Assembly (NCBI GenBank): GCA_019636285.1
Contig: JAHBXV010000050.1
Location: forward strand, 1-39,671
DNA from: Planctomycetaceae bacterium
Lineage (GTDB): Bacteria; Planctomycetota; Planctomycetia; Planctomycetales; Planctomycetaceae
Direction of reading: 5' to 3'
Length of the DNA: 39,671 nucleotides
The translations under genes and the position numbers were made by a program. Shown piece after piece: positions 36,193 to 38,700 of the stretch (its first letter is position 1; every line of letters starts with the position of its first letter). The notes under the pieces were generated by a model. That model had not been told where the DNA came from. It ran no database searches and saw only the letters and a program-made list of their open reading frames with translations.

Positions 36193-36387
36193 TCTCCAGC
36201 CTCAAAGTCTTGAACTACCCGACGGCTCCATGACCTTCACAACCAGAACGTCGCAAAGCGGAAGCCGGACCGATTCACAGTTGGCCATTCACCCTGGCCC
36301 GTCGCATCAAATTTCATGCATGGACACAATAGCCGGACCACGAACCGCTCGCCAGCGACGGCTTCCCGCGCTTCGCTACGTAGTACG

Positions 36388-36459
36388 GTCAAAACCCTCT
36401 GGACATCTGAAACATTCGTGAATTTGCTGGGGTTTCCGAGCCGCCAACCGGGTTTTGAC
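36388..36459. repeat. 72-bp element with 10-bp terminal inverted repeats, copy 1
   Basis: The element opens with GTCAAAACCC and closes with its exact complement GGGTTTTGAC. It contains an inner GAAAC/GTTTC pair and the core GGGGTTTCCGAGCCGCCAAC. Copy 2 (38559-38630, inverted) matches it over 72 of 72 positions without gaps, 64 identical. Similarity extends a few bases outside (AGTAC on the left, GCTC on the right). It is 126 bp upstream of the dienelactone hydrolase start. Confidence 0.9.
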
Positions 36460-36584
36460 GAACGCTCACGGCATCGCTGGGTGGTTGCCGGGAAACTTGA
36501 CCGGGTACGATTTCCCTCGTGGAACATCGCGCGCGTCGCAAGCCGCGCGATGGCAGGACATCCCGACGATTCTGGAAGGACAAG

Positions 36585-37370
36585 ATGATGGTTCCGCGAT
36601 TACTCGCCATTTGTACGGCTCTCCTGGTCACTTCGACGGCAAGTGCCGCCGTGAAGCATGAGACGATCAAGTACAAGCACGGCGACACTCAGTGCGTGGG
36701 CTATCTCGCCTACGACGACTCCATCTCCGGCAAGCGGCCGGGAGTTCTGGTCGTCCACGAGTGGTGGGGGCTGGACGACTACGCCCGCAAGCGAGCCGAC
36801 ATGCTGGCCGAGCAGGGCTACGTGGCGTTCGCGGTCGATATGTACGGCGAAGGGAAGACCGTCAAGCATCCGCAGGACGCCGGGGCGATGGCGGGCAAGG
36901 TGCGGGCGAACATCGAAACCTGGCGAGCCCGCGCTTTGGCTGGCCTGGAAGTTCTCAAATCGCAACCACAGTGCGACCCGACGAAGCTGGCCGCCATCGG
37001 CTACTGCTTCGGCGGCTCAACAGCCCTGCAACTGGGACTGGCGGGAGCCGACCTCGACGCCATCGCCACCTTCCACGGCGCGCTGCCGACGCCGACGGCC
37101 GAGGAAGCCAAGGCGATCAAGGCCCAGGTGCTGATCTGCCACGGCGCGGACGATTCGTTCATCCCGGCCGAAGTCATCACCAAGTTCCGGAGCGCACTCG
37201 ACGCGGCCAAGACCGACTACGAATTCATCGCCTACCCGGGAGCCGTCCACAGCTTCACGGTCCCGACGGCCGATTCCCACAACATTCCGGGGATCAAGTA
37301 CAACAAGGCCGCGGACGAAGCGAGTTGGAAGTCACTGCTGGCGCTGCTGAAGGAGGCGTTTGCGTCTTGA
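36585..37370 (+). CDS. secreted dienelactone hydrolase-family protein
   Basis: The 261-aa protein has a signal peptide (LLAICTALLVTSTASAA). The alpha/beta hydrolase with a Cys nucleophile is seen: Cys141 in GYCFGG, Asp189 in GADDSF and His222 in GAVHSF give the Cys-Asp-His triad of dienelactone hydrolase (carboxymethylenebutenolidase). VHEWWGLDDYARKRADMLAEQGYVAFAVDMYGEG (in parts) holds the oxyanion region. It would hydrolyse lactones or esters in the periplasm. ATG at 36585 has GGAAGGA at good distance. It stands divergent from the DUF1080 gene, with the 72-bp element in its leader. Confidence 0.94.
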   Translation: MMVPRLLAICTALLVTSTASAAVKHETIKYKHGDTQCVGYLAYDDSISGKRPGVLVVHEWWGLDDYARKRADMLAEQGYVAFAVDMYGEGKTVKHPQDAGAMAGKVRANIETWRARALAGLEVLKSQPQCDPTKLAAIGYCFGGSTALQLGLAGADLDAIATFHGALPTPTAEEAKAIKAQVLICHGADDSFIPAEVITKFRSALDAAKTDYEFIAYPGAVHSFTVPTADSHNIPGIKYNKAADEASWKSLLALLKEAFAS

Positions 37371-37390
37371 GGGATGTTTAAGAGTAGCGT

Positions 37391-37424
37391 CGCAGGGGTT
37401 GGATGTTCTTGTCTGACCCCTGCG
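37391..37424 (+). terminator. hairpin after dienelactone hydrolase gene
   Basis: CGCAGGGGT (37391-37399) pairs with ACCCCTGCG (37416-37424), a perfect 9-bp stem with partial extension into the 16-base loop. It starts 20 bp past the stop. No U-run follows. Confidence 0.5.
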
Positions 37425-37496
37425 AGAGGGCGATATCTGGAGGGGGCTCACGAAGACGCGAAGGCACGGAGAAAGCAACGGGAGGGAGACAATGGC

Positions 37497-37886
37497 ATGA
37501 AAACTTCTCTCATGGACATCTTCATCGGTGAATGCGACGGAAGGGACTTCGTTTATGCCTTGAGCCATGAAGAGGCGGTCAAGACTGTTGGGAGAAGCTG
37601 GGCCTTTGGCGACCCTTCGGAGAGCGAGATGGCCATCTGCGACGTATGGGCCTCTTCGCAAAGCGAACGTGGATGGAAAATACGGAAAACACGAATGGAG
37701 GTCACCCACATCCCAGTCGTGATCAATGCAGCGCCGGGTACGACCGGCCACGTCATCTGGACTTGCTGGGAGTGCGGAAAAGGATTTAGCGATGACTGGG
37801 ATGATGACGATCAACTGCCGGTTCTTCTGATGTGTGGTTGCAATAAGCGACTAAAAGTCCTTATCGGCGATGTCCAAAAGACGTAA
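37497..37886 (+). CDS. orphan zinc-ribbon-like protein, 129 aa
   Basis: I do not recognise a family. The product has an N-terminal part MKTSLMDIFIGECDGRDFVYALSHEEAVKTVG (in parts) and a C-terminal metal-binding pattern Cys90-x2-Cys93 (CWECGKGF) and Cys113-x-Cys115 (CGCNKRLKV), with an Asp-rich stretch (DDWDDDD) between. The four Cys could hold one zinc. No signal peptide is present. GGGAGGG precedes the ATG at 37497, which supports a real start. The gene is bordered by a single-arm repeat (about 37449-37475) and a palindrome (37904-37983), and may be a recent addition. Confidence 0.7.
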   Translation: MKTSLMDIFIGECDGRDFVYALSHEEAVKTVGRSWAFGDPSESEMAICDVWASSQSERGWKIRKTRMEVTHIPVVINAAPGTTGHVIWTCWECGKGFSDDWDDDDQLPVLLMCGCNKRLKVLIGDVQKT

Positions 37887-37903
37887 GTCTGCGGCGTAGT
37901 CAA

Positions 37904-37983
37904 GTAGGGTCCGCTGCGCGGGCCATTTCTGTTTGTCATGCCGGCGATTCGAAGCAATCAATGGTCCGCACAGCGGGACCCTA
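37904..37983. repeat. 80-bp inverted repeat, GTAGGGTCC class
   Basis: GTAGGGTCCGCTGCGCGGGCC (left, 37904 on; quoted in part as GTAGGGTCC-GCTGCGCGG) is mirrored by GGTCCGCACAGCGGGACCC, ending in TAC at 37983. The arms differ by a few substitutions and one base. The middle holds about 33 bases. It lies between the zinc-ribbon gene (stop 37886) and the HxlR gene (stop 38019), two converging genes. Confidence 0.85.
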
Positions 37984-38018
37984 CGATGCATAAGAAACGC
38001 CTCTGGGCAGGGGTTGGC

Positions 38019-38372
38019 TTATCGGGTTTTGGCCTTCCATTTTTCTGCTTCTTCGCCCCAGACGTGCATGGCAGCCAGAATTGGGGTAAGCTTTCGGCCG
38101 AAGGGGGTCAGCGAGTATTCGACCTTCGGTGGGATCTGGGCATGCACCTTGCGATCGAGGATGCCCGATTCTTCGAGTTCGCGTAACTGTCGCGTGAGCG
38201 TGCGCGCGGAGACGCCGTCGAGCAGACGGGTCAGTTCGCCGAATCGCCTGGTCCGTTCCAGAAGATGGTGGATGACCAGAACCTTCCAGCGCCCGCCGAT
38301 CGCCTCGATCGTCGTCTCCACGGGGCAACAGACCTTCTTCCGGTCGTTCTTTCTTGCCGTGGCCCTCGCCAT
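38019..38372 (-). CDS. HxlR-family transcriptional regulator
   Basis: The 117-aa protein is a winged-helix dimeric regulator: IEAIGGRWKVLVIHHLL, then RRFGELTRLLDGVSARTLTRQLRELEESGILDRKV and the wing VEYSLTPFGRKL, as in HxlR/YodB/MarR-like DUF24. Cys15-Cys16 (KVCCPVE) sit where HxlR and YodB carry the redox- or aldehyde-sensing cysteine. ATG at 38372 has AAAGGGG at good distance. Its own upstream region contains two CACAA-TTGTG palindromes, found again before the alcohol dehydrogenase gene at 6.1 kb, so it probably controls itself and that gene. It is divergent from the isochorismatase-family gene. Confidence 0.93.
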   Translation of the reverse strand: MARATARKNDRKKVCCPVETTIEAIGGRWKVLVIHHLLERTRRFGELTRLLDGVSARTLTRQLRELEESGILDRKVHAQIPPKVEYSLTPFGRKLTPILAAMHVWGEEAEKWKAKTR

Positions 38373-38395
38373 GCCGTCCCCTTTCGAGATCCTGA

Positions 38396-38465
38396 CACAA
38401 CCTTTGTGCAAGGTGAGTTGATTGCCCGGTCTTCCACGGGTCTTTGACAGGCACAACCGGTCGTG
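38396..38465 (-). promoter_or_regulatory. putative HxlR operator pair upstream of the regulator
   Basis: CACAA-CCT-TTGTG (38396-38408) is a perfect palindrome 24 bp upstream of the regulator start. CACAA-CCGG-TCGTG (38452-38465) is nearly perfect, and is flanked by TGACAGG and TCAGGGA. The centres are about 57 bp apart. The layout equals the one at 6139-6206. The proximal palindrome would overlap the RNA polymerase site for the regulator, fitting autorepression. Confidence 0.65.
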
Positions 38466-38558
38466 TCAGGGAAGGCTGGTATCCTGAATGTTACTGACAC
38501 GCAAAAAAGACCGTACTTGATAAGTCGCCAGGCGAGGCATAAATGTCAAGGAGCTTCC

Positions 38559-38630
38559 GTCAAGACCCGGTTGGCGGCTCGGAAACCCCTGCGAATTCAG
38601 GAAAGTTTCGGACGCCCAGAGGGTTTTGAC
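38559..38630. repeat. 72-bp element with terminal inverted repeats, copy 2 (inverted)
   Basis: The element lies between GTCAAGACCC and GGGTTTTGAC, reversed with respect to copy 1 (36388-36459). The single change in the terminal repeat (A to G) turns one pair into G-U on the plus-strand RNA. It stands 70 bp upstream of the isochorismatase-family start, in the leader between the HxlR operator and the gene. Confidence 0.9.
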
Positions 38631-38700
38631 GGTACTCCAAGGAGCATCGCGGCCGACAGTCGAGCTTGCGGCTCACCATCATCAAATGGAGGAGAGAACA

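Follow-up and report, generated by a model that had tools for sequence, protein, structure and literature searches.

A dispersed family of 88-bp inverted-repeat elements, probably non-autonomous and MITE-like, in genomes of Planctomycetaceae

Introduction

Target duplications of 2 bp (TA) flank the short bacterial elements RUP, NEMIS, ERIC and Nezha. In PMC3733652 these four are named as miniature inverted-repeat transposable elements (MITEs), and the same text describes GTAG and CGTC repeats, Planctomycetes included, terminal inverted repeat (TIR) families beside tyrosine transposases, and, for R. baltica, many tyrosine transposase genes and flanking repeats. For REPINs, length and hairpin capacity were given as the critical features of the spacer, compensatory changes being common (Bertels and Rainey 2011, PMC3116915). 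Here, an 88-bp element is described and compared with these systems, which occurs twice, in inverted orientation, in 39,671 nucleotides of DNA from a Planctomycetaceae bacterium (GenBank assembly GCA_019636285.1, contig JAHBXV010000050.1, positions 1 to 39,671; this whole stretch is called the window below).

With RUP, NEMIS, ERIC and Nezha the element shares size class, absence of coding sequence, terminal inverted repeats, a short target duplication and intergenic dispersal. It probably belongs to a family of non-autonomous transposable elements of the MITE-like kind, a reading supported by many dispersed copies, lying in both orientations, terminal inverted repeats, target duplications of 2-3 bp and an interrupted gene. 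A MITE was one of three options offered by an earlier note on the window, the others being a REP-type (repetitive extragenic palindromic) element and a structured leader RNA.

Results and discussion

The earlier note had reported a 72-base repeat occurring twice, inverted and free of indels (36388-36459 and 38559-38630), with 64 of 72 bases identical and mostly transitions among the changes. On recount these figures were exact, the eight differences being five transitions and three transversions. Its suspicion of wider borders was also borne out: comparison of 30 copies set the unit at 88 bp (Table 1), with the shared flanking bases AGTAC and GCTC falling inside it. Borders of copy 1 were set from the flanking duplications across the family. 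Over the 88 bp, the two copies are identical at 76 positions.

A BLAST search of the window's own genome (G000) with copy 1 as query gave at least 40 matches of 83-100% identity (best 40 of 121 candidates scored), and since these matches are genome-wide, chance similarity of the two window copies is excluded. With a covariance model built from 30 copies (R1, E up to 0.01), a kind of search that the earlier note had proposed with its two copies, at least 108 matches were obtained at no fewer than 107 places, the minus-strand match at C83:826-913 being the same copy as the plus-strand match; only 150 of 3245 candidates were scored, so that more places may exist. Match length was exactly 88 in 78 of the 107, 87 in 15 and 71-90 in the remainder, where it has to be considered that model searches favour full-length matches and that the length scripts used for relatives admitted a limited range around 88. 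Copies above 60 bits were assigned to tier A (78 copies, both window copies included) and those below to tier B (29 copies, with ends mostly GGTTTCAAAACCC and GGGTTTTGAAACGTGTTC); the weakest R1 matches may in part be decayed or doubtful. Flanks are unlike from copy to copy. Non-coding, within the MITE length range of ~70-300 bp and dispersed in many copies, the family agrees with MITEs in these points.

Two observations on individual copies may be added. A diverged copy at G000:C58:24269 (L044, 2270-2350) carries a different right arm, CACGAACCGGGTTTCAACG, and hints at further, older subfamilies escaping the models. Others lie at or near contig ends (G000:C1:1-88, C80:115-202, C36:135-222, C38:185-272).

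The element is mobile. Exact 2-bp direct repeats flank 43 of 77 tier-A copies (partner shuffles: mean 13.5, maximum 28, n = 2000) and 3-bp repeats 9 of 77 (mean 0.9, maximum 5); one or the other is present at 50 of the 77 (mean 14.1, maximum 26, n = 5000), which answers the earlier note's question about target site duplications. For all duplication counts, C1:1-88 was excluded for want of a left flank, and the left borders of some tier-B copies were moved by 3 or 5 bases beforehand. Among the first 30 copies (29 usable, one having no left flank), the top two column pairs by excess out of 400 were the two flank positions, with agreement in 24 and 23 of 29. In subfamily A the duplicated pairs were AT (16), TT (9), AA (6), CT (4), AG, AC and GT (2 each), GG and TC (1 each), and this variation speaks against their being a constant portion of the element or a product of pairing between its arms. 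The flanks lean towards T..C-NN-G..A, each position in about half of the copies, with a weak target preference that is C-AT-G-like in subfamily A and C-TA-G-like in subfamily B and several relatives. In related genomes, variable 2-bp repeats flank six of seven copies in G043, and 37 of 55 copies in G051 carry 2-bp repeats, TA in 35 of these.

One G051 copy (L147 1418-1505; G051:C21:10057-10144) lies inside a Y1 transposase gene (PF01797, IS200-like), after the residues ...LIYSTK, and excision of the 88 bp together with one TA yields a single open frame through the junction. At another place (L066, G000:C26:66865-67041), a subfamily-A and a subfamily-B copy stand back to back, separated by 2 bases, which looks like insertion of one copy at the border of its neighbour.

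Spread among relatives was assessed in 61 genomes from 58 genera of the source's family. R1 was positive in four of them. A second model (R2; 84 distinct copies of G000, G051, G044 and G043; E up to 1e-4) was positive in ten genomes, that is 10 of the 58 genera, and six of these ten had given no sequence to the model. R2 matches numbered at least 72 each in G000 and G051, 68 in G044, 56 in G023, 23 in G018, 21 in G050, 14 in G043, 3 each in G020 and G034, and 1 in G016. Exactly 88 bases were found in 57 of 70 copies of G051, G044 and G043 (script admitting 84-92); an exception to the near-fixed length is a copy of ~100 bases in G018 (L222 ~1450-1550, G018:C1:5312956), in whose central part a short stretch is duplicated. 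Across genera, TCA[A/T]AAC(C)CTCTG on the left and CAACCGG(G)TT[T/A]TGA on the right are largely constant and, less strictly, a central ATTT. A phylum-wide search, insensitive with only the best 11 candidates per genome scored, was positive in 3 of 392 genomes, all of the same family; seven of the ten R2-positive genera, either undrawn or lost, are absent from its positives.

The terminal inverted repeats comprise 12 paired positions (alignment columns 7-18 with 72-83), the outermost six bases standing outside the stem, and this outer stem is paired in 94.0% of cells over the 84 distinct copies. For most representatives the predicted fold starts with the outer stem of 12 bp, which is followed by an asymmetric internal loop (TC opposite ACC); next come a short TGG/CCA stem, in which one base is bulged, and an inner stem that varies. 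The fold differs clearly in 2 of 13 (B1 and G044b). Changes on both sides of a pair occur in 26-40 of the 84 copies at columns 7-83, 8-82, 9-81 and 13-77, and further inward in 30 sequences at 29-60 and in 23 at 32-57. By eye, TTTC/GAAA is replaced by TCCC/GGGA in a G050 copy and CCC/GGG by CTC/GAG in G020, and G034 has lost one base in both arms. The inner helices are paired in 64.5% of cells against 55.0% after shuffling, both this value and the covariation score lying above all 500 shuffles, with no excess of pairs changed on both sides (10 versus 10.0). As co-changes in the outer stem are expected equally if one protein reads both ends, they are no proof of folding.

Gene context was determined with a home-made hexamer gene caller, a rough instrument, in whose training and listing the window contig had been entered twice, the per-copy classes being unaffected. 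All 98 usable copies of the 107 lie between genes (nine were excluded for short flanks). Of the gaps, 62 are tandem, 25 divergent and 11 convergent, close to the share of intergenic bases in each class (37.7, 19.8 and 5.6 kb). A cruder test by stop-to-stop frames pointed in the same direction, less sharply: a frame of at least 250 codons spans 50 of 97 copy sites and 468 of 600 random positions (10 copies with short flanks excluded from open-frame tests). In-frame insertion (88 + 2 = 90 bases) was also considered, since 15 of the 31 sites whose joined frame reaches at least 300 codons stay open; the idea faded after 11 proteins were read by eye, most copies seemingly lying before the start codon.

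If the family is MITE-like, a transposase encoded elsewhere in the genome would act in trans on both ends. It would make a short staggered cut, being most likely of the DDE type; two, sometimes three, target bases are duplicated at insertion. The left (CCC-TCTGG) and right (CCAACC-GGG) arms probably have different roles, as suggested by the asymmetry being kept between genera. Inserted copies would decay without visible selection on their sequence and persist mainly between genes.

Several results weigh against this reading. No repeat of 2-4 bp is present at 25 of the 77 tier-A copies, and in G044 just two of eight copies have 2-bp repeats. In tier B, which is mostly flanked by TA, repeats were counted at 12 of 29 copies (shuffled mean 8.4, maximum 14), and in TA-flanked lineages a duplication is indistinguishable from a fixed TA. 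The end matches listed in G000 (90 of 90 and 100 of 102), G051 (100 of 142 and 100 of 147) and G018 led to no element in which such ends enclose a transposase gene, more diverged ends not having been sought. In G051 there are a few truncated copies and, unexplained, the lone ends L182, L189 and L250. DDE_3 (IS630) genes are few: G000 and G051 have a single one each, beside which no matching ends stand, and G044 and G043 have none.

The candidates for a parent element were inspected individually. Apart from the exceptions just named, the 44 regions at seemingly unpaired ends in G051 are ~88-bp copies with a changed partner end. In G018 (one contig, 6.1 Mb), the list of end matches with no more than two mismatches held 69 entries, and twelve regions, not every weak match, were inspected. 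Two opposed pairs at insertion-sequence distance were rejected as autonomous elements: 5184001/5185335 is an ordinary copy with a chance match in a coding gene, and in 125848/128633 the left member is doubtful and may be what is left of a decayed copy, the right member belongs to an ordinary copy, and the genes in the interval are not transposase-like by eye. In G000, seven right and two left ends have no clear partner; open reading frames near six of the seven right ends look ordinary (by eye, no family search), and between the two members of 18 close copy pairs no transposase was seen (15 proteins, by eye). Descent from IS630/Tc1-mariner elements was rejected, since subfamily A does not keep to the strict TA target, though subfamily B and G051 use mostly TA, and the DDE_3 genes of G000 and G051 lack matching ends. 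An IS30-like derivative fits by its 2-3 bp duplication only, no transposase search having been aimed at IS30, IS5 or IS110 types. Integron attC sites were dropped from consideration, the copies being single, dispersed and flanked by duplications.

Among other explanations, a REPIN-type element, that is a hairpin-forming repeat pair moved in single-stranded form by a REP-associated tyrosine (Y1/HUH) transposase (RAYT), is considered unlikely. It would suit the near-constant length, the conserved ends with a variable middle, the occurrence in many genera without an autonomous form having been found, and the plentiful Y1_Tnp matches (10 in G000, 14 each in G051 and G044, 7 in G043); in tier A, 33 of 78 copies begin with GTAG, by which one REP superfamily is tagged, and CGTC occurs inside the stem. 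Neither motif is kept in other genera, however, where copies start with CAAG, GAAG, CGAG and others, and none of the 30 Y1 loci examined (45 matches in the four genomes) is flanked by the element. Copies lie within ~1.5 kb of two of the 30, one interrupting the gene as described above and one ~1.3 kb off. To our knowledge, variable 2-3 bp direct flanking repeats do not result from Y1 transposition, which counts further against this explanation. The REP-type option of the earlier note, as such elements are defined, therefore does not describe the element, with its 88-bp unit, its flanking duplications and its absence from the flanks of the Y1 loci examined, although the near-fixed length, the conserved internal loop and the features of the population recall REPINs. 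These features also allow a REPIN-like way of life on another enzyme, which we regard as possible, if doubtful: an 88-nt hairpin population without autonomous parent would persist by being copied by a dedicated host-encoded transposase that duplicates 2-3 bp and reads the folded, bulged hairpin, namely the TC/ACC internal loop, a TG/CA pair and the apical ATTT. Such reading of the folded hairpin would account for co-changes in the stem sequence alongside a length and an arm asymmetry that ten genera have in common.

A structured cis-acting RNA of the downstream genes (leader, riboswitch or attenuator) is very improbable. In its favour, each of the two window copies has a predicted hairpin (in element orientation, z -1.8 and -4.0), lineages differ by changes in both partners of a pair, and the middle helix shows, in subfamily A, 26 wobble-making against 16 A-C-making transitions (p 0.16; G051 2:5; copies of length other than 88 were excluded from all wobble counts). 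In the outer stem, wobble-making changes are not the commoner ones (A 12:18, B 3:3, G051 5:7; sum 20 versus 28), and in the TGG/CCA stem they are rarer in A (1:13) and B (1:10), not in G051 (10:7). The compensatory changes about which the earlier note asked are present in the outer pairs; a wobble preference in that stem is not. The middle folds barely better than shuffled sequence (mean z: A -0.55, B -0.47, G051 -0.89, G044 +0.44, G043 -0.40), and the window has no Rfam match at gathering scores. Gene starts are faced by right and left ends alike (56:56), in agreement with the earlier note's argument from orientation against a riboswitch and contrary to its leader RNA option; gap classes near the intergenic share and unrelated neighbours argue likewise. 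That a longer piece of the window was simply duplicated once has practically no probability left: the inverted position of the copies 2.1 kb apart and their ungapped extension to 102 bases at 82% identity would suit it, and it is refuted by the 107 places, which are scattered through the genome and have unlike flanks. Neither of the outcomes that the earlier note had named as fatal to its proposal, a lack of further copies or one longer duplication, was found.

Described MITEs such as RUP, NEMIS, ERIC and Nezha differ from the family: here the matches listed include no insertion sequence that could be a parent by its ends, the duplicated bases vary (subfamily A, G043), all ten genera keep to a length of about 88 despite a diverging middle, and the arms differ from each other in a conserved way. 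With REPIN populations, as presented in PMC3116915, the family shares a short hairpin unit, conserved ends, near-constant length, large populations and the lack of an autonomous copy among those found; it differs in its 2-3 bp flanking direct repeats, in that no flanked RAYT-type gene was seen at the Y1 loci examined, and in that GTAG and CGTC are not kept across genera. TIRtrons and TIRYTs, as described in PMC3733652, are likewise inverted-repeat families without a classical parent element; their transposase gene is flanked by the repeats, an arrangement present at none of the 30 Y1 loci examined here. A full-text literature search with four end sequences gave no match, and no title or abstract start in the listed literature on planctomycete MITEs, palindromic repeats, REPIN/RAYT and TIRYT concerned the element family. 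The family is therefore new relative to the literature searched; a relative may be among the repeats covered by PMC3733652.

In the window, the ends of the 72-base repeats precede the ATGs of a dienelactone hydrolase gene by 125 bases (not 126, as the earlier note had it) and of an isochorismatase gene by 70 bases, as stated there; the Pfam matches of the two neighbours were DLH (E 3.9e-49) and Isochorismatase (E 1.9e-21). A position upstream of hydrolase genes holds for these two copies and looks incidental among the 107, whose neighbours are many and unrelated. For the open reading frame that separates the copies (37497-37886, 129 aa), Pfam gave no match. The gene content is as expected for Planctomycetes. 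At the element ends an outward-reading TTGAC, resembling a -35 box, is found (36455-36459 and 38626-38630, both on the + strand), so that a copy and its flank might together act as a hybrid promoter. In another part of the genome (L090 1501-1588, G000:C48:180351-180438), the right end of a copy places GGAGG 7 bases before the ATG of a gene resembling gatA, and this copy may supply the ribosome binding site.

Table 1 Positions of the element copies, their flanking duplications and end motifs in the window
Feature	Positions	Strand	Remarks
Copy 1, 88-bp element, subfamily A	36380..36467	+	Covariance model 101.7 bits, model positions 1-88
Copy 2, 88-bp element, subfamily A, inverted	38551..38638	-	Covariance model 107.8 bits, model positions 1-88
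Target duplication AC of copy 1 (2-bp), left	36378..36379	.	AC on both sides
Target duplication AC of copy 1 (2-bp), right	36468..36469	.	AC on both sides
Target duplication of copy 2 (3-bp, AAG on + strand), one side	38548..38550	.	CTT/CTT in element orientation
Target duplication of copy 2 (3-bp, AAG on + strand), other side	38639..38641	.	CTT/CTT in element orientation
Left-end motif TCAAAACCCTCTGGAC, conserved, copy 1	36389..36404	+	Largely kept across subfamilies and genera
Right-end motif GCCAACCGGGTTTTGA, conserved, copy 1	36443..36458	+	Largely kept across subfamilies and genera

Conclusions

Near-fixed size, a missing parent and patchy spread mark the family as a probable variant of MITEs whose population resembles that of REPINs. 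With about 100 copies per genome, several of them at or near contig ends, it may contribute to assembly breaks, and it offers a marker for strain comparison within the bacterial family. The REPIN/RAYT system is the best-known case of small repeats that persist although an autonomous parent is lacking. If the present reading is true, this family would be another case, marked by target duplications and by the lack of a visible Y1 partner, and would raise the question of whether bacteria have domesticated other transposases to maintain tiny repeats.

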